A stretch of DNA of 61,124 nucleotides, taken from positions 1 to 61,124 of the forward strand of contig QHYK01000070.1 in the NCBI GenBank assembly GCA_003224085.1, given 5' to 3'. A program made the translations under genes and the position numbers. How positions within the stretch are numbered: position 1 is the stretch's first letter; each line of letters begins with the position of its first letter. Below the pieces are notes generated by a model. That model ran no database searches and had not been told where the DNA came from. It worked only from the letters and a program-made list of their open reading frames with translations. This stretch comes from Acidobacteriota bacterium. Lineage in GTDB: Bacteria > Acidobacteriota > Terriglobia > Acidiferrales > UBA7541. Shown piece by piece: positions 40,430-61,124 of this stretch.

Positions 40430-40492
40430 CCATTCGTGATTTCCATTCCCATTTTCCTTTCCACTCCCATTTCACGTCAGGAGAACAGCACC

Positions 40493-41879
40493 TTGGCGCT
40501 GAATGAAAACAAGCGGATTCAGGATTTTCCAGCCTCCGTGAGCGGACCAATGCAACACCCATTGCATTTATCTGCGAGCGATATTATGGTCGACTCAGCG
40601 ACACCAGCGAAGCGGAAACGAGGAAAATCGTTGTCACGCCGAACTGGTCAAGATGGTCATATCGAGAAGTCAGGAAGGTGGTACGTAGTGCGCTACTGGA
40701 AGGACATCGCTGGTCAGGAAAAGCGACAGCATGTGCGCGAGCGCATCTGTCCGATTTCCGGGCCGGGTAGTCTCTCCAGAAGCGAACGAAAGAGAAAAGC
40801 TAAGGAAATTATTCAATCGAGCGGAGTGGACACAGCCGAGCATTTCACCACCGTGGTAAAACCCAACCCGACAGGCGTCTTATTTCGCGACCAAGCCGAA
40901 GTCTGGCTGCAAAACAGCCAGAATCGCAAGCGCAACCCGATTGGGAACAGTTATGCGGTAACGATTCAGGGAGCACTCGACAAGTGGATTCTCCCTGTTA
41001 TCGGTGACGTCCCTCTCGGGAGCGTGGACAATCTCACCGTCAAGCCCCTCATCGACAAGATGTCAGCAGCAGGTCTGTCGGCTCGAACCATCAGCAAATA
41101 TGTTGAGTTCGTCCAGCAGACCGTGGCGTCGTTGAAGGGCGTCAACGGCGAGCCTGTTCACAAGAGAGTCTGGGATGCCGAAACGATGGACCTTCCCGTT
41201 GTGGAGCATTCGAAGCAGAAGCGTCCATCGCTTAAGGCAGACCCGATTTCGGAACTCATTCGAGGGAGCAGCTGCCAAGAACAAGCACTTTACGTTCTGC
41301 TCGCAGCCACCGGAATGAGAATATCGGAAGCTCTCGCGCTTGAGACAAAACACTTCATAAACAACGGACGCACTATCATGGTCGAACAACAGGTCGAAAA
41401 GGACACCCCGCGCATTGTTCTTCACCTCAAGACGAATGCCGCGAAGCGAGAAATCGACCTACATCCCGACATCGCAGAGTACTTGCGAAAATACATAACC
41501 GGAAGGACGGGGTTGCTGTTTTCACACAGCAAATGGGACGCCCTATCTTCACAACAAACTGGAAGGCCGCTGGCTCACTCCCAGACTCATAAAAATGGGG
41601 CTGGAGCAGAAAGGCATGGGCTGGCATGCATTCAAGCGATTCCGCAAAACATGGTTGCGTGGACAACGCTGTCTGGAGGACATCAATAACTTCTGGATGG
41701 CTCACCGTCCGCAAACCATGTCAGAACTGTACTCGCATCTTCACGAAGAATTGCAGTTACGGCTCGATGAAGCTGAGCGGGTCGGTTACGGATTCGTTCT
41801 TCCGGCGTCCAAAGATGTCTCTGTTGTACCGATTGTCCCGAAATCACAGCAAAAAAATGGAGCAGAAGTTGCAGCGTAA
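40493..41879 (+). pseudogene. Tyrosine recombinase/integrase, frameshifted
   Basis: Phage-type integrase. The most likely start is TTG 40493, with CAGGAGA 8 nt upstream; GTG 40436 has no ribosome site. An N-terminal core-binding region (VWLQNSQNRKRNP to NGEPVHKRVWD) precedes the catalytic domain with box I Arg in ATGMRISEALAL. Frame 1 leaves the family at LRKYITGRTGLLF; the next frame continues FHTANGTPYLHNKLEGRWLT, then GWHAFKRFRKTW, MAHRPQT and the nucleophile Tyr in SELYSHLHEE. Removing one T from TTTT (41519-41522) joins the two. The box II motif is H-A-F-K where the family has H-x-x-R, so a catalytic Arg may also be lost. The gene ends 32 bp before tRNA-Ala. Site-specific integration at that tRNA is likely; present activity is doubtful. 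Confidence 0.85.
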
Positions 41880-41911: not shown

Positions 41912-41987
41912 GGGCGTGTAGCTCAGCTGGGAGAGCACCTGCTTTGCAAGCAGGGGGTCAGGGGTTCAAATCCCCTCACGTCCACCA
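41912..41987 (+). tRNA. tRNA-Ala(TGC)
   Basis: 76-nt tRNA with all arms: acceptor GGGCGTG pairing with CACGTCC, D arm GTAGCTCAGCTGGGAGAGCA, anticodon arm CCTGC-TTTGCAA-GCAGG (anticodon TGC), T arm AGGGG-TTCAAAT-CCCCT, discriminator A and an encoded CCA at 41985-41987. The acceptor holds the G3-U70 wobble pair, the known identity element of alanine tRNAs. It stands alone, without rRNA genes next to it, immediately after an integrase gene, so it is probably an attachment site as well as a working tRNA. Confidence 0.97.
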
Positions 41988-44087: not shown

Positions 44088-44654
44088 TCAAGTAATCCGC
44101 GGTTGAGCGCCTGGATTGTCCGGCGGGTGGTCCGGTTTCTTGGGAGCGACTGCGACGATGTAGTCTTTGATCTCGTTCCGAATCAATTGTTCTACGTTGG
44201 CTGCAAACCGCTTCAGCGCGTCTTTGTGGGCTGTGTAGTCCTTGTAGTCACCGGTCATCTGGAGAAAGTTGAAACCTTCACTCTTGATGAGTTCCGCCGC
44301 GGCACGTTTTTCACGCCAGATGTCGCCGAAACTGAAGAGGCTTTCGACTCCCGCACATATGGCCACAACCAGGCTTGCCAGAATCGATGCGACCGCAAAA
44401 ATCCAGGCGTGTTCGCCCCACACTTGCAACTCGCGAAGGCCGACCAGGGCCGGGATCAATGCTCCGGCGATCACCACTGCGCTGCGCAACGCATGATATT
44501 TCCGTTTAGCGTCGCTAGCACGCGAGTCCCACCATTCGACGTAGTTCAGCCAGCGAGCCTCGATGTACTCATTCCACCGTGTGTCGCCCAGATCGAGTCC
44601 GGCGATGAGCGACCGCAATTTCTCCAAATCGACGAGGACAGGCTTCTTTTTCAT
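44088..44654 (-). CDS. DUF4231/SLATT-type membrane protein
   Basis: 188 residues. Layout fits the DUF4231 family of the SLATT group: an N-terminal helix with YIEARWLNYVEWWDSRASDA, TM1 about 56-74 (SAVVIAGALIPALVGL), TM2 about 83-104 (WIFAVASILASLVVAICAGV), then the family's typical soluble helix EKRAAAELIKSEGFNFLQMT and a C-terminal helical region ending in a Pro-rich tail. SLATT proteins are predicted membrane-perturbing effectors of bacterial conflict systems, often beside nucleotide-signal genes; no such gene is seen here. ATG 44654 is preceded by GAGGGAGGG. It faces the coiled-coil operon and has no co-directional partner nearby within 188 nt. Family call fairly sure; the role in defence is inference. 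Confidence 0.8.
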   Translation of the reverse strand: MKKKPVLVDLEKLRSLIAGLDLGDTRWNEYIEARWLNYVEWWDSRASDAKRKYHALRSAVVIAGALIPALVGLRELQVWGEHAWIFAVASILASLVVAICAGVESLFSFGDIWREKRAAAELIKSEGFNFLQMTGDYKDYTAHKDALKRFAANVEQLIRNEIKDYIVAVAPKKPDHPPDNPGAQPRIT

Positions 44655-44842: not shown

Positions 44843-46144
44843 CTAAAGCAACGGCCCGGCTTTCCAATTCATTCGCGATCCTTCGCCCGTGCCGAACCCT
44901 ATGTAAGCGCGCATGAGGATGCGATTTTGCACCGAGAGCGTAACGCCCACTCCGACGTCGTGGTGCAATCCGCTGAACCCAAGATCGGAAGCACGATTTC
45001 CAACCCGGCCAGTCTCATAGAACACCAAGATACCGAGCGGCCCCCAAATATTGTGTCCGTATTCGCCTTGCAACACCATGCGATCGGGAGCGCGGAAGCG
45101 CAAATCCAGAAAGCCCCGAAGCGTGTCGCGGTCCGCGAGGTCGGCGCCGCCAATGGTTGGCTGGAAATAGAACGGGATCTGCTGTTGCGCGGCGGTCTCC
45201 AGGGTCAGTAAGCCATTGATCGCGATGTACCCTAACGTGCAAACCTTGCCGGCGCCTTGAGGGGTGCAAAACCAGTCACGGGCCGCATTGGGGCTGGCCG
45301 GAACAGCTTTCCGTCGCCAGCGCAGCGGACGCATGTTGATGAGATCGGCTTCGAATTTGTGAAACGAAAATCGGTGGACGTCCAGATCCTGGTAATACTC
45401 ATAGCCGATTTGGTAGTCGAGCTTGAAGGGGAGGATCGCAGGATAGTGCGGCAAAGCCAGGATCTTGTAGTGCATGAAGCCGGGCTGCTCGGTGAGCCCC
45501 GGTGCCTGGGTATCGTTGAATAGACTCTCGATTGATGGAATCGAGGAATTCGGGATCGGTCCGATATGCGGCACAACATAGCCCACCTCTCCCCCGATGT
45601 CTAGCCAGGACAAGACCGGGTCGAGAACCTTCACGCCTCCCTCGAACCAGCGCTCGCCAAATTGCACGTGCGTCTGTTGCGTGGTTGCATTTCCGTGCCC
45701 GTAGTAAGCAAGCCCGGGAAGCTCCACGCGGCGCGTATAAAGCTCAATCTGAAAATTATCCTTGACCGGACATTCCGATTTTCCCGTACACGCAAACGCC
45801 GGCCGTTCGAACAGGATGTCGCCTTCGAGAAACAAAAACCGGTTTGTCGAGACCGCCGCCGTGCCCGAAATCTCCTTATTCCACCGCGCTTTCGGGGTGA
45901 AGTCGTGAATGGCACGCAGACCGCCGCCAAAACCTCCGCCTGGGGCGATCGTCTTGATAACCGGACGGACCGGCATTGCCAAATAGACCCGGCCGCAGTC
46001 TTCAATCCGGAACCGGTTGGGGTGTTCCACGGCATCGCCGCAGGTCTGCTTCAAATCACTCCAGGTTTGTGCGTGAACAAGAGCAGCACAGAGCATGATG
46101 ACCAGGGGGAAGACAAGCCGCAGCAGCTGGAGAACTTTTTTCAT
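44843..46144 (-). CDS. Outer-membrane beta-barrel protein, Omp85/surface-antigen-like
   Basis: 433 residues with a Sec signal peptide (hydrophobic stretch to CAALVHA, cleavage after Ala25). The mature part has alternating aromatic/polar strands typical of a barrel, e.g. FQIELYTRRVELPGLAYYGH and DYQIGYEYYQDLDVHRFSFH. Near 338-345 it has DRDTLRGF followed by LDLRFR, the L-R-G-F loop that marks the C-terminal barrel of BamA/TamA-like surface antigens (PF01103 type). No POTRA domains fit in the short N-terminal part, so it would be a barrel-only member. It begins 2 nt after the stop of the phosphoesterase gene, so both come from one transcript. Role in export or in lipid/phosphate handling is inferred from this pairing. 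Confidence 0.8.
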   Translation of the reverse strand: MKKVLQLLRLVFPLVIMLCAALVHAQTWSDLKQTCGDAVEHPNRFRIEDCGRVYLAMPVRPVIKTIAPGGGFGGGLRAIHDFTPKARWNKEISGTAAVSTNRFLFLEGDILFERPAFACTGKSECPVKDNFQIELYTRRVELPGLAYYGHGNATTQQTHVQFGERWFEGGVKVLDPVLSWLDIGGEVGYVVPHIGPIPNSSIPSIESLFNDTQAPGLTEQPGFMHYKILALPHYPAILPFKLDYQIGYEYYQDLDVHRFSFHKFEADLINMRPLRWRRKAVPASPNAARDWFCTPQGAGKVCTLGYIAINGLLTLETAAQQQIPFYFQPTIGGADLADRDTLRGFLDLRFRAPDRMVLQGEYGHNIWGPLGILVFYETGRVGNRASDLGFSGLHHDVGVGVTLSVQNRILMRAYIGFGTGEGSRMNWKAGPLL

Positions 46145-46146
46145 GC

Positions 46147-47562
46147 TCAGTCCTTGGCCGGTTGCCTGGCAAGCGCTGCGGCTTTGATCTGCGTGGCAAA
46201 GGCGGAAGCGTCGTGCTCACTCGCCTGCTCGGGGTCCGGCGCGACCGCGGGGTGGTTCAGCTTTTGGCCGACGAAGCTCGCATGGCTCAAAAGTTCCCTT
46301 TGCAAGGACGAAAGCGAACTCGCGCTATTCGCGGCGACGGCCGGGGGGACAGCCGCAGGAGGAGGATTCGGGAAATTGGCGATTACGGCCGTTGGTGCGT
46401 CGCGTGTCGGAACCCTTTCGAGCTTTCCCCAGGCCGGATCGGTCGAAGCTTGCCGGTCGCGGTCACTGAGGAAACTGGTCTGTGCGTCTTTTGTGAAGAG
46501 CCGGCGCGCCGCCCCAAGAAAAGACGTGTGATCGAAGATCTGGCTGACGATGGTGCCAGGTTCAATATAGGGAGAGACTAGGACGGCCGGAACACGCACA
46601 CCCAGCCGGTCGAAACCAAAATTCTCGGGATTGTCGATTTTGTTGTCGGGAGGAGCGGCCGCCGGAGGACGAACGTGATCGAACAATCCGCCATGCTCAT
46701 CGTAGACAATCACCAAAAGGCTCTTTTGCCAGACGTCCCGGTTCTTGGTCAGCGCCCTGTAGACATCCGCGATTAACGCTTCGCCGTCGTAGACGTCGTG
46801 GTCCGGATGCTGATCATTCGGGGAAAACGACTGGCCGTGGGGAGCGGTTTCCCGATTGTAACGTGGCTCGATGAAGCAGTAGGCAGGAACATTATCGTCT
46901 TTGCAGTCGCCTGCAAAATCGGAATAGTCCTCAAAGAAGCGGGCCTGATTGCTGAAAAGGAGACGTTCAAAGGTCAGCGCGGAAGAGAAGTCGTGGAAGT
47001 AGATCTTGGCGCTGACGTTGCGTGCCTGAAGAAATTGATAGATGGTGACGAAACCGTCAAAACTGAAATCGGGCGACATGTCCAGGCGGCCCCGCGACGT
47101 ACCGGCATGCGCAAACGTTCGATTGGGAAGCGTTGGTCCTGGAACCGAGGAATACCAGTGATCGCAGACGGCGTACTGCTTGGCAAGTGTCGTCAGCACG
47201 GGAAGGCGGGCGGGCGTCCAGCACTTCATAATGTTGGCTGCACGGTCCCGGTCCCCGCCACAAACGGTTTGGTAGTTCTGCAGGAAGCCCGACATCTGAG
47301 GCGGTCCCGCCGCCGCACCCGCTTCACTTCCAAAGATCTGCACATTGACTGAACGGAAGTCGTGGCTCGGATCCGGCGTCAAATCCCCCGTCGGAGCGGC
47401 ATCTCGAGAAACGAGGACTGGCTCATTCGTGAGATCGTCGTTCGACTCGCTGCCGTCCAAACCCTCGATGTCGTAACCGGGTGCCTTCAAAAAGCCCAGC
47501 ATGTGGTCGAACGAACGGTTCTCCATCATAAGCACGATTAGATGTTCGATAGTTGGAAGCAT
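46147..47562 (-). CDS. Phosphoesterase family (phospholipase C / acid phosphatase type), copy 1
   Basis: 471 residues of the PF04185 family in the alkaline-phosphatase superfamily, which cleaves phosphate esters such as those of phospholipid head groups. Signature motifs: MMENRSFDHMLG near the start (metal-binding Glu-Asn and the region of the catalytic residue), VPGPTLPNRTFAHAGTSRG in the middle, VIVYDEHGGLFDHVRPP with the second metal-binding Asp-Glu-His, and FDHTSFLG. There is no signal peptide: the conserved core starts at residue 5, unlike secreted bacterial phospholipases C, which carry Tat signals. The C-terminal 90 residues are Pro/Ala-rich and low in complexity. ATG 47562 has no good ribosome site. 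Transcribed with the barrel protein gene. Confidence 0.9.
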   Translation of the reverse strand: MLPTIEHLIVLMMENRSFDHMLGFLKAPGYDIEGLDGSESNDDLTNEPVLVSRDAAPTGDLTPDPSHDFRSVNVQIFGSEAGAAAGPPQMSGFLQNYQTVCGGDRDRAANIMKCWTPARLPVLTTLAKQYAVCDHWYSSVPGPTLPNRTFAHAGTSRGRLDMSPDFSFDGFVTIYQFLQARNVSAKIYFHDFSSALTFERLLFSNQARFFEDYSDFAGDCKDDNVPAYCFIEPRYNRETAPHGQSFSPNDQHPDHDVYDGEALIADVYRALTKNRDVWQKSLLVIVYDEHGGLFDHVRPPAAAPPDNKIDNPENFGFDRLGVRVPAVLVSPYIEPGTIVSQIFDHTSFLGAARRLFTKDAQTSFLSDRDRQASTDPAWGKLERVPTRDAPTAVIANFPNPPPAAVPPAVAANSASSLSSLQRELLSHASFVGQKLNHPAVAPDPEQASEHDASAFATQIKAAALARQPAKD

Positions 47563-50057: not shown

Positions 50058-51431
50058 ATGGGAGCCTCTGACCCGATTAAGCACGTAGTCGTCCTTATGA
50101 TGGAGAATCACTCGTTTGACCAACTGCTGGGATGCATGCAGCAGGTTTACGCTGAACTCGAGGGCATCGACGAGAAGAAGTTGCGTTCCAATCCTGATTA
50201 TCCGAATGCAAACAACGTTGTACAGCAGGCAGCGACGAAGCTGACCTCCATTTCCCTCGATCCGGTTCACGAACACGTAAATGTGCTGCGTCAAATTGCG
50301 GATAACTGCAGCGGATTCGTTTCTGATTTTGTCCAGTGCTACAGCCAATGCGGAGAGACCCGCCAGCAGGTGATGTCTTACTATCAACTCGGCTCGTTGC
50401 CTGTACTTCATCAATTGGCCCAAAATTTTACGGTTTGCGACCATTGGTTTTCATCGCTCCCGGGACCCACCTGGCCCAACCGCTTCTTCGTACATACCGG
50501 CACCTCCAAAGGCCACGTCAAAATGCCTTCGGGCATGTACATAAAGAACGAGTATTTTTACGATCAGAATACGATTTATGACGAGCTCGACAACAAGCAC
50601 ATCACCTGGGGCATTTACCACCACGGAATGCCACACACCTTGCTGCTCGCACGTCTATGGGACAGACCCGGTCAGTTCCACCGTATGGACAACTTTTTCA
50701 AAGACGCGACTCGTCCAGAAGAAGAATTTCCGCAGTATGTCTTTATTGAGCCTTCCTACGGCGGAACCGACGAGAATGACCAGCACCCACCGACGGACAT
50801 GCGGAAGGGCGAATATCTAATCGCCCAGATATACAACGCTTTAAGACGGAACGAGGCACTCTGGAACTCCACGCTCTTTGTGCTTCTTTATGACGAACAC
50901 GGGGGATTCTATGACCACGTCTGTCCCCCGAAGGCCATCCCACCGGACCGCGACACGATGGAGTTTGCATTTGACCAATACGGCGTCCGAGTTCCGGCCA
51001 TTTTGATTTCACCCTGGGTCGACAAGGGCTTCGATTCGGGTATTTACGACCATACATCGCTGCTGAAATATCTGATTATGAAATGGAATTTACGGCCAGA
51101 CACGCTTGGCGCGCGGGTCGCCGCCGCTGATACCTTTGTTTCCCTACTTCAACGGAGGCAGGTCCCCCGGCCCGGCACGCCTGGTCCCTTCGATATTGAT
51201 GTCTTCGCAAGTCTCGAACCGGCACTTCCCAAGGCCACCAACGAACATCAAAACGCGCTCATCACGTTCGCTCACTTTCTCGAACAGAAGATGTCCCATG
51301 TCGAGGAACTGGCGGCTGTCGGCTACCGATCACTGAAGAGCCTGGGTAGTCCTTTAGACCAGCTTACGGTCGCGAAAGACCGTTTCCTGCTTTTTCTGCA
51401 CCACGGACAAGCCGGTCGCCTTGATGATTAA
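50058..51431 (+). CDS. Phosphoesterase family (phospholipase C / acid phosphatase type), copy 2
   Basis: 457 residues, same PF04185 family as copy 1: VVVLMMENHSFDQLLGCMQQ at the start, SLPGPTWPNRFFVHTGTSKG, VFIEPSYGGTDENDQHPP, LLYDEHGGFYDHVCPPKAIP and YDHTSLLKY. These carry the metal ligands and substrate loop of the family. ATG 50058 follows AAGGAG by 6 nt. Again the catalytic core begins at once, with no export signal. Its sequence is clearly diverged from copy 1 (not a recent duplicate). The GMC oxidoreductase gene follows 74 nt later in the same direction. Substrate unknown; phospholipid or other phosphoester hydrolysis is the family expectation. Confidence 0.92.
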   Translation: MGASDPIKHVVVLMMENHSFDQLLGCMQQVYAELEGIDEKKLRSNPDYPNANNVVQQAATKLTSISLDPVHEHVNVLRQIADNCSGFVSDFVQCYSQCGETRQQVMSYYQLGSLPVLHQLAQNFTVCDHWFSSLPGPTWPNRFFVHTGTSKGHVKMPSGMYIKNEYFYDQNTIYDELDNKHITWGIYHHGMPHTLLLARLWDRPGQFHRMDNFFKDATRPEEEFPQYVFIEPSYGGTDENDQHPPTDMRKGEYLIAQIYNALRRNEALWNSTLFVLLYDEHGGFYDHVCPPKAIPPDRDTMEFAFDQYGVRVPAILISPWVDKGFDSGIYDHTSLLKYLIMKWNLRPDTLGARVAAADTFVSLLQRRQVPRPGTPGPFDIDVFASLEPALPKATNEHQNALITFAHFLEQKMSHVEELAAVGYRSLKSLGSPLDQLTVAKDRFLLFLHHGQAGRLDD

Positions 51432-51505
51432 TGGTGTGGTCAATGCGAGCCACTTACTTCTCCTGATCCGGTCTCGGCTGCAGTAGAAACAGCGAGAGGT
51501 GAACG

Positions 51506-53071
51506 ATGGATTTTGACGTGATCGTTATCGGAAGTGGTTTTGGCGGCGCCATCACCGGCTGTCGGCTAGCCCAAAAAAATAAGAAGGTTTTGATCCTCGA
51601 ACGCGGGAAAGAGTGGACCAAAGACACCTACCCTCGAAACATAGAGGACGAATGGATTTGGAGCAACACCTCGCCGGAGAAATATCACGGGTGGACCGAT
51701 CTCAGAACCTTCAAAGGAATGGCTGTCATCACCGGCGCTGGTGTTGGCAGCGGTTCTTTGATTTACGCGAATGTATCCGCCATTCCACCCAAATCCGTTT
51801 TTCAGGCAGGCTGGCCACCCGAAATTACCTACGACGAGATGCAACCTTACTACAGCACCGTCGGGGATGTTCTCGATCTGCAAGAGGTTCCGGCAAAGCA
51901 GCGCAGCCCACGCGTGCAATTGATGCAGGAGGGTGCAGCCAAATTGGGGCAGGTTTCGCCCCGCCCCGGTCGCCGTGTCCTTTGACCAGCAACTCGCTTA
52001 CGACTTCAATGACGAGCCGGACATAAAAAAAGCCGGACCTTCACCAACAAGCACGGCGCCGAACAGGGCTATTGCGCACAGTTGGGAGAATGCGACGTCG
52101 GGTGTCGGGCCGGCGCAAAAAATACTCTGGACAAGAATTATCTGTTTCTCGCACAGAAGAAGGGCGCCTAGGTCCGGCCGCTCCATCTGGTGGCGAATAT
52201 CGAGCCTATTCCCGGGGGATATCGCGTCCACCATGATGAACTGCGCGACGGCGGCCGCATCTCCGCGACAACGACCGCTGCGATCGTGGTTGTCGCGGCA
52301 GGCTCCTTGGGATCCACGGAACTCCTACTGCGATGTCGCGACGTAACCGGAACACTTCCGCAGATCAGCCGCTTTCTGGGAAGGAACTGGAGCAGCAATG
52401 GCGACTTCCTGACACCCGCCTTTTACTTACACCGAGAAGTTTGGCCCGACCGCGGCGTCGCTATCGGATCGGTCATCGATTACCTGGATGACAGCATCAA
52501 CGGTAAAACCTTTTGGATTCAGGATGGCGTCATTCCCGGTGTTATGACCAAGTACTTCGAAGCGGTCATGGACCGCCTGCGTAAAGCTCCAGAAGACGAG
52601 CACCTTCTGCATCAATTTAGCATGCAGTCTCTGCACCTCACCCTGCTTTCCGCCAACATTGACCTGTTCAAGCACATCATGCCCTGGTTCGCGCAAGGGG
52701 TGGACGCCGGTGACGGCGAGTTGCGCTTGAGCAATGGCACCCTCGATTTGAAGTGGGACATCGCTCAATCGCGTGAACTGTTCACGACGATACTGGACAA
52801 GCAGAACGAACTGGCCAAAGTCACCGGTGGACATCCATTTCCCCTGCCTACTTGGTCGCTCTCTCAAGAGCTAATTACGCCGCACCCGTTGGGTGGCTGC
52901 AACATCGGCCCGTCTCCAGCCATGGGGGTCGTTGACCATGCCGGGAAAGTGTTCGGCTACGACAACCTGTACGTTGCCGACGGCGCGATCGTGCCGCGGC
53001 CGCTCGGCGTGAATCCTTCGCGCACCATCGGCGCGTTAGCCGAACGAATTGCCAGTCTCATCCCTGCGTAG
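51506..53071 (+). pseudogene. GMC oxidoreductase (cholesterol-oxidase-like), decayed
   Basis: FAD-dependent glucose-methanol-choline oxidoreductase in three pieces. Piece 1 (frame of 51506) has the FAD fold VIVIGSGFGGAITGCRLAQK and GAGVGSGSLIYANV. One extra G in GGGG (51946-51949) pushes it out of frame; the next frame carries RFRPAPVAVSFDQQLAYDFN. One A too few in the A7 run (52025-52031) returns it to the first frame with TFTNKHGAEQGYCAQLGECD and the family's GCRAGAKNTLDKNYL, which then meets an in-frame TAG at 52169-52171 (where GAG would give Glu). The rest is open from 52190: FAD/substrate region and the C-terminal PHPLGGCNIGPSPAMGVVD with the active-site His and GVNPSRTI. Total length (about 520 residues) is normal. 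Three lesions in 230 bp favour a true pseudogene. Confidence 0.88.
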
Positions 53072-53234
53072 GGCGGAAATTTCTGAAATTCGGGAGATGG
53101 ATGCTCGCAAGCAATTTGTCATCGCTTGTGGAAGGTTGGTCGAACAGCTCACGAACTGGATGCTTGATTGGCTGCACAAAGCTACATGCAATAGCCAGTG
53201 CAGGGCCAATCGACCCAGGCAACCACGAATTCAT

Positions 53235-53262
53235 TTGACACCGACAATTCGAGGACTATAAT
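53235..53262 (+). promoter_or_regulatory. Near-perfect sigma70 promoter upstream of peroxidase operon
   Basis: TTGACA at 53235-53240 and TATAAT at 53257-53262, 16 nt apart, both perfect consensus boxes. Transcription would start near 53269 and give a leader of about 165 nt before the peroxidase start. The leader holds short inverted repeats (e.g. GATAG...CTATC near 53312-53332) but no riboswitch class I recognise. The rest of the 361-nt gap (53072-53432) contains no gene I can support. It would drive the peroxidase, glycosidase, propeller-lectin and amine oxidase genes. Confidence 0.85.
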
Positions 53263-53432
53263 CGCGCCATAACGCGTGAGGTACGTCCTCAGAGCAGTAT
53301 TCAACAAACGATAGATAACGTCCGGCTATCTCCTGATTTGGTCTCCAGGTTCTGAGATGGCTTCACACTCAGGCCAAAACACCTATCGATGAACGTCGGC
53401 CGTCGCCGTGTCGGCTCGTTGAGGAGAAATTG

Positions 53433-55136
53433 ATGATCAACCCTGCTATCAGTGCAAAAAAACGTCAGCCCGCTGCTCACGGAGGTGGCGTCCGCGGCGA
53501 CAACTCCGTTCCGCGATCGTCGCAGTTCGAAGGACGCTTCGGACGGATGTTTCGGTCTTTGCCATCCGCCGAGTGGCCCAAGAAAGCGCTTCTCGATCTG
53601 GGGCTGGCCATGACTGCGGACCCGGAGCACTTGGACACAGACAAGAATGCGCCCACCGCCGCATTCGAGGCAGACGACAAGCGCATTCAGGATGACGAAG
53701 AGAACGTGGCTATCGCCGCCGGCTATACGTACCTCGGTCAGTTCATTGATCACGACATCACGTTCGACCCCGCGTCGAGCCTGCAGCAGCAGAACGATCC
53801 TGATGCGCTGATCGATTTCCGCACTCCGCGGCTGGACCTGGATTCGTTGTACGGCCGCGGGCCCGGAGACCAGCCATGGATGTATCTTGGGAAGAAGTTT
53901 CGACTTGGGCGCCCTTTGTTCGAAAACAAAAAAGCCAGCAAGGCACGGGACCTGCCCCGATTCGATGATCCCATCAACAAAGGAGCCAAACGGGCGCTTA
54001 TCGGCGACAAGCGTAATGACGAGAACGTGATCGTGGCACAACTCCATTCGGCCATGCTGCAGTTTCATAACAAACTGGTCGATAAGCATCCCGACGACGC
54101 CTTCGAGCGCGTGCAACAGCGAGTGCGATGGCACTATCAATGGATCGTCGTGAACGATTTCCTCAAGACCATTTGCGGGGAAGAGGTTGTCGAGAACATC
54201 CTCCCTGATTTTGGAAAAAACAAGCCGATTTGGAAACTGAAGCCCAATTTGTCGATCTTCAAATGGCGCAACGATCCGTTCATGCCCATCGAATTTTCGG
54301 CAGCTGCATATCGCTTCGGTCATTCGATGGTGCGACCCATCTACCGCCTGAACACTGAACTCAACGGGGGCGATAACCCCGACATGGCCACACCCGAAGA
54401 ACAAAAGCGAGGCTTGGCCGGGCGCTTTTTTATTTTTGCGGGCGTGCAAAAGCGCGGCCTGAACGGATTCGACGAATTTCCCCAGCAGTGGGCGATCGAT
54501 TGGAGCTTGTTCTTCGATATCGGTGGCTCGATCAATAACGTAGGCAAGAAACGAGTACAGCCAGCCTATAAGATCGATACTTCACTCGTGAACCCCATGG
54601 GATTTCTGCCGGAATTTTCGAAGCCGCCGCAGCCGCTGGTTCCCCCATTTAGTGTCCGTCAGCTGCAATCGATAGCTGTGGATCCTGATGGCGATCCGTC
54701 GAACCTTGCACAACGGAACTTGCTTCGCGGCTTGGCGATGGGGCTGCCGAGCGGTCAGAGTGTCGCCCTAGCTCTGGGCGTCGACCCGATCGAGGACAGC
54801 GAATTGCGCGTGGGAAAGGCTGTCACGGGCGACCTCCCGAACAATCCGTTGCTGACTTCTTTTGATAAAGAAAACAACAGCTTCAAAGGGAACGCACCGC
54901 TCTGGTACTACGTCCTGGCGGAAGCGCAAGTCGAATGGGCCAAACGAGCCACGGCAAAGGGCAGCAAAGGCAATGAGGAACCAATTCGTCTGGGAACGGT
55001 GGGCGGACGTATTGTCGCAGAGACCATCATCGGACTGATCTGGGGAGATGGCCACTCGTACTTGCGCCAGGCACCAAACTGGAAACCGGATACCATTCGC
55101 AGCATGGGAGATCTCATTCATTTCGTTCTGAGTTGA
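53433..55136 (+). CDS. Animal-type haem peroxidase
   Basis: 567 residues from ATG 53433 (GAGGAG 6 nt upstream; a TTG directly before it is also possible). Member of the peroxidase-cyclooxygenase superfamily (PF03098), which uses H2O2 to oxidise halides, phenols or lipids. Seen: distal-site motif GQFIDHDITFD with His near residue 107 and the Ca-binding Asp next to it; FRTPRLDLDSLYG, usual in this family; GDKRNDENVIVAQLHSAMLQ with the catalytic Arg and Glu near 194 and 197; proximal His in AAAYRFGHSMVRP near 297. All key residues are present, so an active enzyme is expected. There is no signal peptide. Neighbours include two flavin oxidase genes that would make H2O2. First gene behind the consensus promoter. 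Confidence 0.93.
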   Translation: MINPAISAKKRQPAAHGGGVRGDNSVPRSSQFEGRFGRMFRSLPSAEWPKKALLDLGLAMTADPEHLDTDKNAPTAAFEADDKRIQDDEENVAIAAGYTYLGQFIDHDITFDPASSLQQQNDPDALIDFRTPRLDLDSLYGRGPGDQPWMYLGKKFRLGRPLFENKKASKARDLPRFDDPINKGAKRALIGDKRNDENVIVAQLHSAMLQFHNKLVDKHPDDAFERVQQRVRWHYQWIVVNDFLKTICGEEVVENILPDFGKNKPIWKLKPNLSIFKWRNDPFMPIEFSAAAYRFGHSMVRPIYRLNTELNGGDNPDMATPEEQKRGLAGRFFIFAGVQKRGLNGFDEFPQQWAIDWSLFFDIGGSINNVGKKRVQPAYKIDTSLVNPMGFLPEFSKPPQPLVPPFSVRQLQSIAVDPDGDPSNLAQRNLLRGLAMGLPSGQSVALALGVDPIEDSELRVGKAVTGDLPNNPLLTSFDKENNSFKGNAPLWYYVLAEAQVEWAKRATAKGSKGNEEPIRLGTVGGRIVAETIIGLIWGDGHSYLRQAPNWKPDTIRSMGDLIHFVLS

Positions 55137-55188
55137 ATCGCTCCTTCTAATCCGAGCGAATCTGACAATTTTTTGGAATCCGTAGCGG

Positions 55189-58146
55189 GTGACGAAAAGG
55201 GTCGTCGTGAATTCCATCGGCAACTCGTGGCACATCCCGACCTCCTCCGAGCCTCGCAGCACGATGCGCGATCCGGTGACAGGCATTTCCGCGGCGACCA
55301 GCGTGTCTATTTTCTGCGGCAACCAGTATCAGGGGCCGGGAGAACCCGGGAACCAACTGGAAGCCGGCAGCGCAGTGTTCTTCAGACGGCGCGGCGAAAC
55401 CTCATGGTCGTCCGTGCCCATGAAGTTCGACAGCGCGCAAGCCAACAACAAATACTACGTGGCCAGACTGCCCACGAATACCTTCGCGACCGGCGACGTC
55501 ATTGAATACTACTTGCGAATCCCTTACAGCGATCACCCAACCACTTTCGTTCACGGAAGCGACAACCAGTCCTCAGCGACGGCAACGGAAACGGCTGCCC
55601 AGGGAAACCCATTCTCGTTCACGGTGGAGGCTTCGGAAAACTTCGTATCTTTCGATTCCGGAGCACTTCAGGCGCGTGTGACCCTGGACTCCGGGCAATT
55701 TACGTTGACGGGCCCGGACCTTCACGGAGCGGCGCACGCGAACGTCATCACCTTCTTTGCGCCGACGGTGCGCGTGGCCGGCAAATCCTTCCCCCTGCAA
55801 CCGATACGAGATACGAAGAAACTGGCCAACGGCTTGGAGCTTACCTGCGATCTTGGAGGGACAACACTCACCGCCCAACTGACATTTCCAAGCGACAACG
55901 TCATGCAGTACGAGATCGTGCGATGGAACGGCATCGTCGCCGAGCAAACCATGGTGACAGCGACTTCTGATGGAGGCGAGCACTTCTTCGGTTTTGGCGA
56001 GAAGTTCGACAGCCTGGATCAGGCCGGCAAGAGGGTCCGCACCTTGACGATCGATGACCCCGGCACAAAGGGCGGTCACTCGTACAAAACCGCGCCGTGG
56101 TTTCTCAGTACGCGGGGTTACGGTTTCCATCTCGATTCGTCCGCGGAAAGCCACTTCGACATGCGTGCCAGCCAGCCGGACCGCTACGTGATTACGAATT
56201 TGTTTTCCACGCTGAAATTCAAAGTGGTTTACGGACCTGATCTATCCGACGCGCTGACCCGGTTCACGGCATACTCTGGCCGACCCTTTTTGCCCCCGCC
56301 CTGGGTTTTCGGGCCATGGATCTCGTCGGATATTTGGCGAAGTGGTGGCGAGATCCGCTATGCGGTACAGAATTTCGCCGGCAATCTGAAGGGAAGGGGG
56401 ATCCCTGCGTCTGCAATCGTTTTTGATTCGCCTTGGGAGACGGCCTACAACGATTTGCAGTTCAACATGACGCAATTCGGTAAGGGAGAAGACTTTGAGG
56501 GCGACCACTACGACGGATTCGCTACCCTGCCGGAAATGACGGCGTTTCTGCAAAAAAACGGTTTGAAGGTCATCTGCTGGATGGCGCCGTTTGTCAACCT
56601 GCAGTCGGAGGCAGAAACGCTGCCCAACCGTTTTCAACCCAACGGTGCGTTGCAAAGGGTGCCGGGTCAGAATATCGGCAAGGCGTCGAACTATGACGAA
56701 GGCGAGAGCAAAGGTTTTTTCGTTCGCAAGGCTGCTGGCGGACCTCCGCTGGTCGTGCCTTGGTGGAAGGGACGCGGCAGCCCGATCGATTTCACGAATC
56801 CGGCAGCCCGCAAGTGGTTTAACGATCAGCTTCTGAGACTGTTGAAGCAAAGCGAGGTCGTTACAGCGAGCGGCAAGGAGCCCGCAATAGGCGGATTCAA
56901 AACGGACGACGGTGAGACGCAAAACACCGCGCAACCGCCCAACGTGTATATACCGCTTACGGCAACCTACGCCGACGGCCGCACGGGGACGGAGATGCGC
57001 AATGCGTATTGCTTCGAATATCAGCGCTGTGTTTCCGGCGTTTTGGGAGGCAACGGGGTGCTCTTCGCGCGGAGCGGTTTCGTGGGTTGCCAGGCCTTTC
57101 CTGGACACTGGCCCGGCGACAACGAACCGAACTTTGGGCCGAATGGTTTGCCCGGTGTAATCACCGCCGGTCTATCGTCCGCAATGTCAGGTTACGCGAT
57201 TTGGGGCCCGGACGTCGGCGGATACCAGGACTCGAACTTCGCGGCAACCGCCTCGGAACGCGCCGATCTGTTCATGCGTTGGAGCCAGTTTGCCTGCTTC
57301 TCTCCGATCATGCAGATGCACAGGCAGGTCCATAGGCAGAAAAACCAGGACTTCACATTGGGCAAGACGGAGGAGCTTCGGCAGTATCCGTGGGGCTACG
57401 GAGCGGAGGCTCTCGCGAACTATCAATTCTTCGCGAGATTGCACACGCGCTTATTTCCGTACATCTATACCTATGCCAAGGAATCGGCCGCAACGGGCTT
57501 GGCGATTTTGCGGCCGCTGATTTTGATCAATCAAAGCGACCCCCAAGCCCTCGGTGTGGAGCATGCCTATCATTTCGGCAATGAGTTCCTGGTGGCCCCC
57601 ATCGTCGCCTTAAACGCGAATTCGCGGCAAGTGTATTTGCCAGCGGGAAACTGGGTAGATTTTTGGACTGGCGCTGTTCACGCGGGCGGCCAGACCATCC
57701 CGTGGAGCAGCCCAGACCGCATGCAATTTCCGCTGTTCGTGCGGGAAGGCGCGATCGTGCCGTTGCTTCCGAAAAACGTGCAAACCCTGTGTGACGCCGC
57801 CTATGTCAACAACAGTGCAATTGCCGCGGCAAGTCAGGACCTGACGTTTCTGATCTATCCGGGCAGTGGGACATCTCAATTTTCGGTCTACGACCAGACC
57901 CAGATTGAGTGCCAGCGCTCCGGTAGCGCTCGAATGGTTATCCTCAATTCGATTCCCCGCGCGGTGACGTTGCAAGTCTTCGGAGACGAGCCGCCCAACG
58001 TCACTCGCAACGGATCGAGTTTGCCAAAACGAGCGAAACTTGCGGAGTTCGAGGCATCGGATGATGGATGGCGATTCGATGCGCCGACCCGGTTCGCGTT
58101 CATCAAGTTCCGCCACGCGGGAGGTTCGGTTCAAATACGGTGCTAG
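55189..58146 (+). CDS. Glycoside hydrolase family 31 (alpha-glucosidase/alpha-xylosidase type)
   Basis: 985 residues from GTG 55189; the ribosome site is weak and GTG 55207 is an alternative. An N-terminal ~150-residue beta domain (carbohydrate-binding or galactose-mutarotase-like; YYVARLPTNTFATGDVIEYY) leads into the GH31 core. Catalytic nucleophile: Asp573 in GGFKTDDGE; acid/base: Asp644 in HWPGDNEPN; both agree with the family, although the usual KTDFGE has Asp for Phe. Other core motifs: PPPWVFGPWISSDIW, GVITAGLSSAMSGYAIWGPD, PYIYTYAKESAATGLAILRP. It hydrolyses alpha-linked sugars, or transfers them. Size is larger than simple alpha-glucosidases. No signal peptide. It follows the peroxidase gene by 52 nt and precedes the propeller-lectin gene by 54 nt, so it belongs to the same operon. 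Confidence 0.92.
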   Translation: MTKRVVVNSIGNSWHIPTSSEPRSTMRDPVTGISAATSVSIFCGNQYQGPGEPGNQLEAGSAVFFRRRGETSWSSVPMKFDSAQANNKYYVARLPTNTFATGDVIEYYLRIPYSDHPTTFVHGSDNQSSATATETAAQGNPFSFTVEASENFVSFDSGALQARVTLDSGQFTLTGPDLHGAAHANVITFFAPTVRVAGKSFPLQPIRDTKKLANGLELTCDLGGTTLTAQLTFPSDNVMQYEIVRWNGIVAEQTMVTATSDGGEHFFGFGEKFDSLDQAGKRVRTLTIDDPGTKGGHSYKTAPWFLSTRGYGFHLDSSAESHFDMRASQPDRYVITNLFSTLKFKVVYGPDLSDALTRFTAYSGRPFLPPPWVFGPWISSDIWRSGGEIRYAVQNFAGNLKGRGIPASAIVFDSPWETAYNDLQFNMTQFGKGEDFEGDHYDGFATLPEMTAFLQKNGLKVICWMAPFVNLQSEAETLPNRFQPNGALQRVPGQNIGKASNYDEGESKGFFVRKAAGGPPLVVPWWKGRGSPIDFTNPAARKWFNDQLLRLLKQSEVVTASGKEPAIGGFKTDDGETQNTAQPPNVYIPLTATYADGRTGTEMRNAYCFEYQRCVSGVLGGNGVLFARSGFVGCQAFPGHWPGDNEPNFGPNGLPGVITAGLSSAMSGYAIWGPDVGGYQDSNFAATASERADLFMRWSQFACFSPIMQMHRQVHRQKNQDFTLGKTEELRQYPWGYGAEALANYQFFARLHTRLFPYIYTYAKESAATGLAILRPLILINQSDPQALGVEHAYHFGNEFLVAPIVALNANSRQVYLPAGNWVDFWTGAVHAGGQTIPWSSPDRMQFPLFVREGAIVPLLPKNVQTLCDAAYVNNSAIAAASQDLTFLIYPGSGTSQFSVYDQTQIECQRSGSARMVILNSIPRAVTLQVFGDEPPNVTRNGSSLPKRAKLAEFEASDDGWRFDAPTRFAFIKFRHAGGSVQIRC

Positions 58147-58200
58147 GCGTCCCCACCAGGAATTTTTCGCAGCTCGAGTCCAATTTCAGGAGAGGTCCCC

Positions 58201-60654
58201 ATGCCGGTCAGCGTTCTGACGCAACACAACGACAACATTCGTTCGGGTGCCAATCTGCAGGAGACCAAGCTCAATACTACGAATGTGAACGTGAATGATT
58301 TTGGCTTGCTGGCGTCCCGCGACGTCGAGGGTCAAATCTACGCGCAGCCGCTGTATGTGCCAGGAATCGAGATAGCCGGCAAGGCGCGAAACGTGGTCTA
58401 CGTCGTGACGATGCACAACTGGGTGTATGCGTTTGACGCAGACGATTTGAGTCTCGGCGCCGGGCCTCTTTGGAAACGGCAAGTCGATCCTCATCCTGTC
58501 CCGTCCGGCTTCTACCGCCTGAGCTACCACGACATCAGTAACAACACCAATGACCCTATCGGCATTCTCAGTACGCCGGTTGTCGATCTGACGGCGAATG
58601 TGATCTATTTGGTTGCTGCCACATTCGACCCCGCGATTCTGGCAGGACCCGTTGCAGCGGCGCCAAATGCTTTCAAGCAACTTTTGTTTGCGCTTGACCT
58701 TTCCACGGGTAACCTTCGACCAGCCGTCGCCGGGTCGTCGAATCCGGTGCCGATCGGTGGATCGATTGCTGGGGTCGGGTACCGCGACGGTAAGGAAGTA
58801 GGCGCCGGCGTTACCGTGCACAAGACGGCGCAGGGCGCGAGCGTGGACGTCACCATCGACGGCAAGGCGATGACCGTTGTCGATGCCAATGGCGGCAAAG
58901 TCTTCTTCAGTCCCATGCAGCACATGCAACGGCCGGGACTGTTGCTACAAGATGGATTGCTGTACATCGCGTTCGGCTCTCACGGCGACTTTGATCCTTA
59001 CCACGGCTGGGTTTTTGCCTACGAAGCCTCTTCTCTGAAACAGAAAGGTGTCTTCTGCACTACACCGGGAGGTGCGGAGGGAGGAATTTGGCAGGCCGGT
59101 GAGGGGCCGGTGGGTGACGGCAAGGGCAACGTATATTTTGGGAGCGGGAACGGCGACTCCGACCCCACGGCTGTGGGAGGCCCGAACCTTGGTCAGAGTT
59201 TCGTTCGCTTGCGCGCCAGTGCAACATCGCTCGACTTGGACGCATACAGGAAAATCGTTCAAGATCCTGGAGTTCCTGACGAGGATCTGGGGGCCGCGTC
59301 TCCCACCATTCTTCCAGACGGTTTTTTGGTCGGTGGCGGCAAGGATGGCAACTTTTACCTGCTCGATCCGGCCCAGATGACGAAAACGAATGCTGCCGCC
59401 TCACTTGTGCAGGCCTTCCTTGCGACCCGGGGACGCGGAAGCCGTACCGAGAAACCTTTGAGCACTCATCACATTCATGGGTCGCCGGTTGTCTACGACT
59501 CGCCCAATCAGGGCGTGCTGGTTTACGTGTGGGGCGAAAACGAAGTGCTCCGAACCTTTCAATATGACCCGATCTCTCACGGCTTTTCCGGCCAACCTAA
59601 CGCGAGAAACGTGCCCGGACAGAGCAGGGCGATCGGGACTATGTATGCATCGAACGATGAGCGCGATCGAGACGGAATGCCGGGAGCCATGCTGTCGCTC
59701 AGTGCGAACGGCAAGAACCCCGGCACGGCGATTCTCTGGGCTTCGCTTCCACCTTTCCTCAATGCCAACCATGGCAGCGTGGATGGCATCCTGACCGCCT
59801 ATGATGCGACGCACTTCGACACGCAGGGCCGTCTTGTGCAGCTGTGGCACAGCCATCAAAACCCCGCCGATGATCCCGGCAACTTTGCCAAGTTTTGCTG
59901 TCCGACTGTCGCGGACGGCAAGGTGTTCTTGGCGACCTTCAGCAACAAGTTACGAATTTATGGCCCGCGCTCTGCGTCCGACGGCGGGTATAACGTAGGA
60001 TTTGGAGGGCACAACGGGCTGACCCTCAACGGAAGCGCTCGAAGCGCCGGTGGGCCGCTGCGGCTTACGGGAAAGCACGACTTGCAGGCGGGAAGCGTGT
60101 TTTGCGCGAAGCCAGTGAACGTCAAAACCTTCAATGCTTCTTTCCGGTTTCGGACCACAGCCGGGAATGCAACCGCCGACGGGATGACCTTCTGCATTCA
60201 GAGCGAAGGTCCACATGCACTGGGCGGCCCGGGAGGCGGCTTGGGATACGGGCCTGATTCGAACAACCCCAATGATCCGGGCTTCAAAATCATTCAGAGT
60301 GTCGCTCTCAAGTTCGACCTCTTCGATAATGAAACCATTCAAGCGGGCAGCTTCCTCGGTTTATACAAGAACGGCGACTCTCCGACTGCCGCGAATGCCA
60401 TCGGAGGTGAAATCCAGCTTGTCCCCCTCGGCATGGATTTGCATTCGGGGCATCAGTTTCTTGTAACACTGACCTACGATGGCGCGACCCTGCAGATGGT
60501 CTTGAAGGACCGCACCTTGAAAACGCAGATCACGCACTCGTTTCCGATCGATATTCCGTCCATCACGGGGAATACGGCGCATGTCGGCTTCACTGCCGGA
60601 ACCGGTCTTTCCAGCGCAGACCAGGACATTCTCAGTTGGCTATTTAGTTCATGA
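58201..60654 (+). CDS. PQQ-type beta-propeller fused to L-type lectin domain
   Basis: 817 residues from ATG 58201, ribosome site AGGAGAGG. Residues 1-~590 form a quinoprotein-like eight-blade propeller of the form common in Acidobacteriota: TQHNDNIRSGANLQET, EGQIYAQPLYVPG (43-55), NVVYVVTMHNWVYAFDADDL, then repeated blade motifs such as VYFGSGNG and KVFLATFSNKLRIYG. Residues ~597-817 form a legume-type (L-type) lectin fold: FRFRTTAGNATADGMTFCIQ, GGPGGGLGYGPD, ALKFDLFDN and a final VGFTAGTG that closes the sandwich. The fusion suggests carbohydrate binding. PQQ binding cannot be judged from sequence alone; the propeller may be structural only. No signal peptide, which is unusual for both domain types. 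Fourth position in the cluster, upstream of the amine oxidase gene. Confidence 0.9.
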   Translation: MPVSVLTQHNDNIRSGANLQETKLNTTNVNVNDFGLLASRDVEGQIYAQPLYVPGIEIAGKARNVVYVVTMHNWVYAFDADDLSLGAGPLWKRQVDPHPVPSGFYRLSYHDISNNTNDPIGILSTPVVDLTANVIYLVAATFDPAILAGPVAAAPNAFKQLLFALDLSTGNLRPAVAGSSNPVPIGGSIAGVGYRDGKEVGAGVTVHKTAQGASVDVTIDGKAMTVVDANGGKVFFSPMQHMQRPGLLLQDGLLYIAFGSHGDFDPYHGWVFAYEASSLKQKGVFCTTPGGAEGGIWQAGEGPVGDGKGNVYFGSGNGDSDPTAVGGPNLGQSFVRLRASATSLDLDAYRKIVQDPGVPDEDLGAASPTILPDGFLVGGGKDGNFYLLDPAQMTKTNAAASLVQAFLATRGRGSRTEKPLSTHHIHGSPVVYDSPNQGVLVYVWGENEVLRTFQYDPISHGFSGQPNARNVPGQSRAIGTMYASNDERDRDGMPGAMLSLSANGKNPGTAILWASLPPFLNANHGSVDGILTAYDATHFDTQGRLVQLWHSHQNPADDPGNFAKFCCPTVADGKVFLATFSNKLRIYGPRSASDGGYNVGFGGHNGLTLNGSARSAGGPLRLTGKHDLQAGSVFCAKPVNVKTFNASFRFRTTAGNATADGMTFCIQSEGPHALGGPGGGLGYGPDSNNPNDPGFKIIQSVALKFDLFDNETIQAGSFLGLYKNGDSPTAANAIGGEIQLVPLGMDLHSGHQFLVTLTYDGATLQMVLKDRTLKTQITHSFPIDIPSITGNTAHVGFTAGTGLSSADQDILSWLFSS

Positions 60655-60726
60655 CAACCAAGCTTGCTGAGACCGAGAGTGAAGCAAGTCGCCGATGCTG
60701 TATCTGCCGTTGGAGGAGAATCAAGG

Positions 60727-61124
60727 ATGCCTTCTAAGCCGCGGTCGTGCATTGTTATCGGTGCCGGTTTGGCTGGACTGTCGGCTGCCTATCGGCTGAG
60801 AACGCGTGGATGGAACGTGACCGTGCTGGAAGCCCTGCAGAAGGTGGGAGGCAGGGTCTTTTCATACCGATTCAAACAAGCTCCGAAATTGGTCTGTGAA
60901 CTGGGAGGGGAGTGGATTGGCGTACGTCACAAGGCCATCCGGAGGCTTTGTGCCGAATTAGGCTTGAAGCTTCAGCGCCACCGGTACGCCTTTTCCTTCT
61001 GGAATGGGGGCGAGGCCCTTTCACGGATTTTCAGGCCGGGCACCTGGTGTTTTTCCACGAAAGCCCACAAGAACTTTGAAGCTTTCAAAACACGGTTTGC
61101 CAAATACGATCCTGCGCAGATTCG
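60727..61124 (+). CDS. Flavin-containing amine oxidase (3' end outside window)
   Basis: First 132 codons of an FAD amine oxidase/monoamine oxidase-type protein (PF01593). ATG 60727 follows GGAGGAGAA at about 9 nt. The dinucleotide fold CIVIGAGLAGLSAAYRL, the acidic end of strand 2 (VTVLEALQKVGGRV) with the GGRV motif, and CELGGEWIG for flavin contact are complete. These enzymes oxidise amines or amino acids and release H2O2, which would suit the peroxidase gene upstream. Located 72 nt after the propeller-lectin gene in the same direction. Substrate cannot be judged from this part. Confidence 0.9.
   Translation, partial: MPSKPRSCIVIGAGLAGLSAAYRLRTRGWNVTVLEALQKVGGRVFSYRFKQAPKLVCELGGEWIGVRHKAIRRLCAELGLKLQRHRYAFSFWNGGEALSRIFRPGTWCFSTKAHKNFEAFKTRFAKYDPAQI

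Follow-up and report, generated by a model that had tools for sequence, protein, structure and literature searches.

How enzymes of families often found outside the cell can be encoded side by side without any signal peptide is the question raised by one end of an acidobacterial contig. The window, that is, the whole stretch of 61,124 nucleotides analysed here, is an entire contig of the draft genome of a soil Acidobacterium (G000; 6.8 Mb in 159 contigs, estimated 97% complete). Between positions 50058 and 61124, its plus strand carries in colinear order a phosphoesterase gene, the remnant of a GMC oxidoreductase gene, and genes for a haem peroxidase, a GH31 enzyme, a legume-lectin-tailed protein and the start of a flavin amine oxidase. 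A preliminary description had taken these six genes as one cluster of mostly extracellular families, whose signal-less products might leave the cell through a contractile or other one-step system or by lysis. Pfam matches, all on the plus strand, bear out the one-direction arrangement of the six named families. The six genes, however, are not one unit: the real unit is composed of the peroxidase, the GH31 enzyme, the propeller-lectin and the amine oxidase. Our literature search recognised no publication dealing with this gene set.

The unit was delimited by comparison with relatives of G000 (G017, G032, G029, G274, G263 and G018), in which genes were predicted with a simple open reading frame (ORF) caller and genome searches scored few candidates per genome. 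The closest peroxidase-bearing relatives of G000 are metagenome-assembled gp2 Acidobacteria. G017 keeps the order peroxidase, GH31, propeller-lectin, amine oxidase (locus L023), and the window and G017 products share 76 to 84% amino-acid identity. DNA homology starts at the peroxidase start in G017 and at 53099 in G032, and the phosphoesterase and GMC genes are found neither upstream of the unit in G017 nor upstream of the peroxidase in G032. We therefore rejected the cluster of six; its last four genes stood and its first two did not. The intergenic gaps inside the unit are 70, 54 and 72 bases. The ratios of nonsynonymous to synonymous substitution (dN/dS) between the window and G017 were 0.054 for the peroxidase, 0.123 and 0.078 for two pieces of the GH31 gene, 0.069 for the propeller-lectin and 0.076 for the amine oxidase (on 135 codons), values that are only rough because dS (1.2 to 1.9) is near saturation. 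With dN/dS of 0.05-0.12, the unit is under purifying selection.

The beginning of the unit is marked by a perfect promoter-like site, TTGACA-16-TATAAT, at 53235..53262 on the plus strand, between the GMC remnant and the peroxidase gene. All 12 of its 12 consensus positions match, which makes it a candidate sigma-70 site by consensus rather than a mapped transcription start. A 12/12 match is also present in G032, with the same spacer, and in G017, with a different spacer and at a distance of 172 bases vs 198 in the window. None of 300 shuffles reached 12/12 for any of the three sequences. Upstream of 12 other peroxidase loci, where most starts were match starts and not verified start codons, the best sites had 7 to 9 of 12 positions. 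A scan of the whole region returned 5 promoter-like sites when 4.8 were expected, the one at 53235 being the sole perfect one. Since this perfect site precedes the peroxidase, is kept in G017 and G032 and is weaker at other peroxidases, the unit most likely starts at the peroxidase gene.

The 3.9 kb contig of G032 contains the promoter and the first 151 peroxidase codons, 97.8% identical to the window over 785 bases of DNA, and then ends. As rpoB of G000 and G032 is only 90.5% identical, this points to recent transfer, unless the short G032 contig was mis-binned. No GH31 gene of the unit's kind was found in G032. The unit is an accessory cassette, probably a transferable one, of a few gp2 Acidobacteria. 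Among plasmid records, the peroxidase has relatives in 27 and the GH31 enzyme in 33 (at most 33% identical among the matches listed), and the amine oxidase in none at E 1e-40; one unannotated Gemmatirosa stretch was found among these plasmid relatives. Group II intron remains were seen directly downstream of the unit in G017 (L103:16933-17322) and, in G018, some 4 kb away from the peroxidase gene (L108:2-1016).

We then assigned the four products, setting start codons by ribosome-binding sites and comparison with G017. The peroxidase gene (53433..55136, plus strand) begins at an ATG after GAGGAG, moved from the earlier annotation to the point at which G017 DNA homology begins. Its product belongs to the peroxidase-cyclooxygenase superfamily (PF03098, E 1.7e-13) and keeps the distal and proximal histidine motifs together with the Asp and Glu residues (GQFIDHD, GDKRNDE, RFGHS); we assume the usual roles for both histidine motifs, and haem ester bonds for the Asp and Glu. 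The GH31 gene (55207..58146, plus strand), its start moved to a GTG common to G017, encodes an alpha-glycosidase or transglycosylase with the catalytic barrel (PF01055, E 4.1e-53) and the motifs FKTDDGE and GDN, presumably providing the nucleophile and the acid/base. Its best match in the PDB is Lmo2446, a cycloalternan-forming enzyme. The third gene (58201..60654, plus strand), whose ATG directly follows a AGGAGAGG ribosome site, encodes a PQQ-type propeller fused to a legume-lectin domain (PF00139, E 1.8e-16). The propeller part alone has no Pfam match, and its family profile finds quinohaemoprotein alcohol dehydrogenases in the PDB as distant matches (E 1.5e-6). Structure models of the propeller-lectin and of the barrel protein discussed below (mean predicted local distance difference test scores of 30.9 and 32.8, respectively) were kept out of fold searches.

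The amine oxidase gene (60727..61124, plus strand; PF01593, E 8.4e-18) was given a new start at 60727, an ATG after GGAGGAG, and is cut by the contig end at 61124, so that in G000 nothing of the DNA downstream can be seen and only relatives display it. The whole G017 protein resembles L-amino-acid and amine oxidases, and the window protein is predicted to be an active oxidase that releases hydrogen peroxide (H2O2). Close relatives occur in 6 of 299 genomes of the class, G000 included. In G263 (L198, G263:C6), 3.7 kb separate an amine oxidase gene of this kind from a DyP-like gene on the opposite strand, where a fusion of glutathione S-transferase and cytochrome P450 is also encoded. The preliminary description had counted two flavin oxidases able to feed the peroxidase with H2O2. 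That count falls to one, because the GMC gene (51506..53071, plus strand; PF05199) has main-frame stops at 51983, 52010 and 52169, leaving the amine oxidase, itself cut by the contig end, as the sole one without visible damage.

Whether signal peptides are truly missing was examined with a home-made hydrophobicity scan (cut 1.8; not SignalP) that covered alternative starts and in-frame upstream extensions to the previous stop. As positive controls, it picked up the secreted neighbour encoded at 44843 (2.79) and leader-bearing propeller relatives. No leader was found at any in-frame start of the phosphoesterase, the peroxidase, the GH31 enzyme (best 1.55) or the propeller-lectin, and what the scan flagged in the amine oxidase (2.07) and in the GMC remnant (2.01) is the first strand of the FAD (flavin adenine dinucleotide) fold. 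The absence of signal peptides reported earlier was therefore upheld by the scan, also after the starts had been moved to 53433, 55207 and 60727.

The meaning of this absence differs between the proteins. For the peroxidase, a missing leader is ordinary: among 59 relatives, the window protein and its G017 copy being left out of the 61 scanned, 55 have no hydrophobic N-terminus. These proteins came from the best 80 of 102 related loci, of which 6 span less than 8 kb and one is the G032 contig that ends within the gene (L053); for 19 of the 80 the ORF caller gave no peroxidase gene, 10 of 71 called pieces were excluded for being short, 5′-open or duplicate, and the 14 of the 61 proteins without the anchor motif were judged on their first 60 residues. 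The statement that most of these families act outside the cell thus fails for the peroxidase, and the dinucleotide fold stands at the start of the amine oxidase. The propeller-lectin, on the other hand, is a true anomaly, a signal-less member of a mostly secreted family. The family is widespread in the class: 108 of 250 genomes gave a match with E of 1e-20 or lower, in many cases along part of the protein. Of 22 relatives in which the N-terminal motif could be placed, 20 carry a hydrophobic leader ahead of it, which often ends in AQ right before VSVLTQHND. The count is derived from 28 loci (L117 to L144), 6 without the motif being excluded; L122 and L123 have an identical N-terminus, and the two below the cut are L119 (1.75) and L135. 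The window protein is homologous to the family over both propeller and lectin; it and its G017 counterpart carry no N-terminal signal peptide and begin M-PVSVLTQHND, placing the start codon at what would be the mature N-terminus of the relatives.

Cysteines, counted on local alignments, provided a second line of evidence. Five cysteines of the propeller-lectin (C286, C566, C567, C635 and C665) are common to the window and G017. Among 27 propeller relatives, the aligned site is a cysteine in none at C567, in 2 at C566 and in 3 at C286, and among 14 lectin domains it is so in none at C665 and in 2 at C635. The trio C111/C262/C559, present in 10 of 24 relatives, is absent from the window protein. 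In the GH31 enzyme, Cys 457, 602, 697 and 862, common to G000, G017 and G274, are Leu, Ala, Ala and Val in three leader-bearing relatives. Judged from the alignments, this pattern fits proteins that bypass the oxidising periplasm; it does not separate residence in the cytosol from one-step export or lysis.

We also asked whether the GH31 enzyme meets oxidases elsewhere. Its subfamily is rare, being detected at E 1e-110 in 3 of 95 genomes of the order, G000 included, and in a phylum sample in 3 of 396 genomes, two of which have a distant leader-bearing type. In G274, GH31 and amine oxidase genes are nevertheless paired, 2.6 kb apart on one strand and in an order other than that of the window; given how rare the two are, a chance meeting is unlikely. 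Between them lie FG-GAP and galactose-oxidase-like frames that are parted by two unread bases and so probably form one protein. Neither the G274 GH31 enzyme nor the frame starting at 1190 shows a leader; the contig end takes away the start of the amine oxidase there, and with it any view of the N-terminus. A planctomycete contig (L035) brings together a peroxidase, a galactose-oxidase-like gene and a GH31 gene. An oxidase or peroxidase thus stands beside this GH31 in 4 of 4 loci seen, of which L023 and L035 had been recruited through their peroxidase; G274 alone does not depend on that selection. The expectation that the genes would co-occur in relatives holds for the GH31 and amine oxidase pair and not for the peroxidase, which is scattered.

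Export by a contractile system was searched for in six genomes. The PF04984 sheath profile and the G017 sheath protein used as query each found a match in one of the six, G017 only, and VipB was found in none; other secretion-system types were not searched. Neither sheath nor VipB thus accompanies the unit in the G000 draft, and we rejected contractile export, as proposed in the preliminary description, as unsupported. A contractile cluster is present in G017 (L177, G017:C341), with a sheath, two gp19-like tube proteins, a base-V OB protein and a gp25 protein; it may be an extracellular contractile injection system (eCIS) or a phage tail.

We tentatively read the locus as a transferable four-gene cytosolic unit, operon-like from 53235 to beyond 61124, an account that as a whole we put a little short of an even chance. 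The four genes would be co-transcribed, and their products would be made and folded in the cytosol, bypassing Sec and the periplasm; the amine oxidase would make H2O2, the peroxidase would use it, and the GH31 enzyme and the lectin would act on a common glycosylated substrate, either within the cell or once it has burst. Several observations weigh against this reading, besides the roughness of the dN/dS values. The complete unit is known in two copies only, of which that of the window is cut by the contig end and that of G017 has one frame break in its GH31 gene. In named genomes, 73 of the 80 peroxidase loci have no other unit gene in the available DNA; of the remaining seven, one is the G017 unit, two are Methylobacter loci that carry a propeller gene (about 25% identity) and four have single partners, namely GH31 (L035), phosphoesterase (L039), GMC (L045) and a weak opposite-strand GH31 match (L059). 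The scan flags stretches above the cut inside the GH31 proteins of G017 (2.12, at an inner ATG) and L035 (2.44, at an inner TTG), which we read, short of proof, as strands of the fold. The cysteine pattern is blurred as well, since C286 is kept in two leader-bearing Methylobacter relatives and is not specific, and since the signal-less L035 GH31 keeps Cys 697 and 862 only, position 602 being Ala and position 457 having no aligned counterpart. Finally, the galactose-oxidase-like neighbour in L035 has a leader, and no copper radical oxidase is known to act in the cytosol, so that the corresponding G274 partner, although without a recognisable leader, argues for work outside the cell.

This last point bears directly on a second explanation, in which the cytosol serves as a store for enzymes that act only once the cell is broken, for instance as a deterrent or a public good, with the lectin holding them on glycans. 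The missing signals, the consensus promoter and the lectin tail would suit such a set, and the G274 galactose-oxidase-like partner would need copper and oxygen. We regard this explanation as doubtful though a serious rival, and as the site of the chemistry we slightly favour the inside of the cell. The four genes might also be neighbours without common function gathered by transfer of accessory DNA, as the identity to G032 at the locus in excess of that in rpoB, the many solitary peroxidases and the intron remains near the loci in G017 and G018 would suggest. An order, a promoter of its own and purifying selection common to two species speak against this, as does the renewed pairing of GH31 and amine oxidase in another order in G274, and we think it unlikely. 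A dedicated one-step exporter, contractile or of another kind, would likewise account for the missing signals and for cysteines that do not meet the periplasm, and G017 has the contractile genes described above, those for sheath, tubes and baseplate; that cluster, however, is on contig C341 and the unit on C199, and the sheath and VipB searches were negative in G000, which makes this the least probable of the explanations considered. A bolder version, in our opinion quite improbable, would combine several of these elements: a transferable oxidative cassette of secreted-type enzymes stripped of their signals, which would wait in folded form in the cytosol until lysis or an unknown one-step exporter let them all out together, the lectin tethering H2O2 chemistry to glycans.

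Returning to the cytosolic four-gene reading, the unit is a modest yet real oddity and does not speak for an injection system. The propeller-lectin in particular offers a natural case, in which a member of a mostly secreted family cleanly lacks its signal peptide, is under purifying selection, has a changed cysteine set and sits in an oxidative, glycan-active unit. This makes it testable whether such oxidative and glycan-directed sets act inside the cell or serve as a weapon released on lysis. It also carries a caution, namely that missing signal peptides alone do not imply injection systems.

The two genes upstream are neighbours outside the unit. In G029, an 84% relative of the PF04185 phosphoesterase (50058..51431, plus strand; E 2.9e-74) is encoded on a contig of 6 kb where no GMC or peroxidase gene was seen. 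In the GMC gene, the match to a whole GMC protein reads through all three stops, a second, weak match (E 0.10) being in a different frame, and the genome search likewise reports a stop within the gene, which has a weak cholesterol-oxidase-like match; the interruption may reflect decay or an assembly error. A further signal-less PF04185 phosphoesterase is encoded on the minus strand within 44843-47562, followed by a leader-bearing protein with a weak Omp85 match (E 3e-4, below the cut-off). Of 27 other phosphoesterase loci, 13 have a relative of this leader-bearing protein next to the phosphoesterase, and the two possibly form a dedicated pair. In G018 (L108, G018:C112), some 1 kb separates a phosphoesterase and its barrel-type neighbour from a peroxidase of the family studied here, which is encoded on the opposite strand.

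Elsewhere in the window, a long array of about 14 tandem genes of some 880 to 960 amino acids, one of them split, occupies 753-38747 on the plus strand; the one tested (3418-6075) encodes an ADOP-family duplicated permease (TIGR03434, 911 bits). A phage-type integrase gene (40436-41689) stands just upstream of tRNA-Ala (41912-41987). The region to the right of this tRNA may be an integrated island; an island bounded by tRNA-Ala was set aside, as the tRNA end was not seen to recur within the window, despite the integrase upstream. A DUF4231/SLATT-type membrane protein, of a kind also known from defence systems, is encoded at 44088-44654 on the minus strand.

Compared with known systems, each product combines familiar and unusual traits. 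The amine oxidase shares with flavin L-amino-acid and amine oxidases the PF01593 domain and the FAD-binding start, and it differs in having close relatives in few genomes of its class. With Lmo2446 and related GH31 enzymes, the window GH31 shares the catalytic barrel and the KTD.GE and GDN motifs; unlike them, it has no leader and has an N-terminal stretch of about 140 residues that is absent from the G274 copy. Bacterial haem peroxidases of the peroxidase-cyclooxygenase superfamily (PF03098) include peroxicins and peroxidockerins (PMC4420034). The window peroxidase is like bacterial PF03098 proteins in its distal GQ..DHD, its GD.R..E and its proximal RFGHS, and in the usual absence of a leader among relatives; it differs in having no PDB sequence match up to E 0.01 and in sharing a unit with the GH31 enzyme, the propeller-lectin and the amine oxidase. 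The propeller-lectin is, over propeller stretches, about 30 to 58% identical to leader-bearing propeller proteins of the class, some of which have ricin- or legume-type lectin tails, and it bears a lectin tail itself; unlike them, it starts at the N-terminal motif and has another cysteine set.

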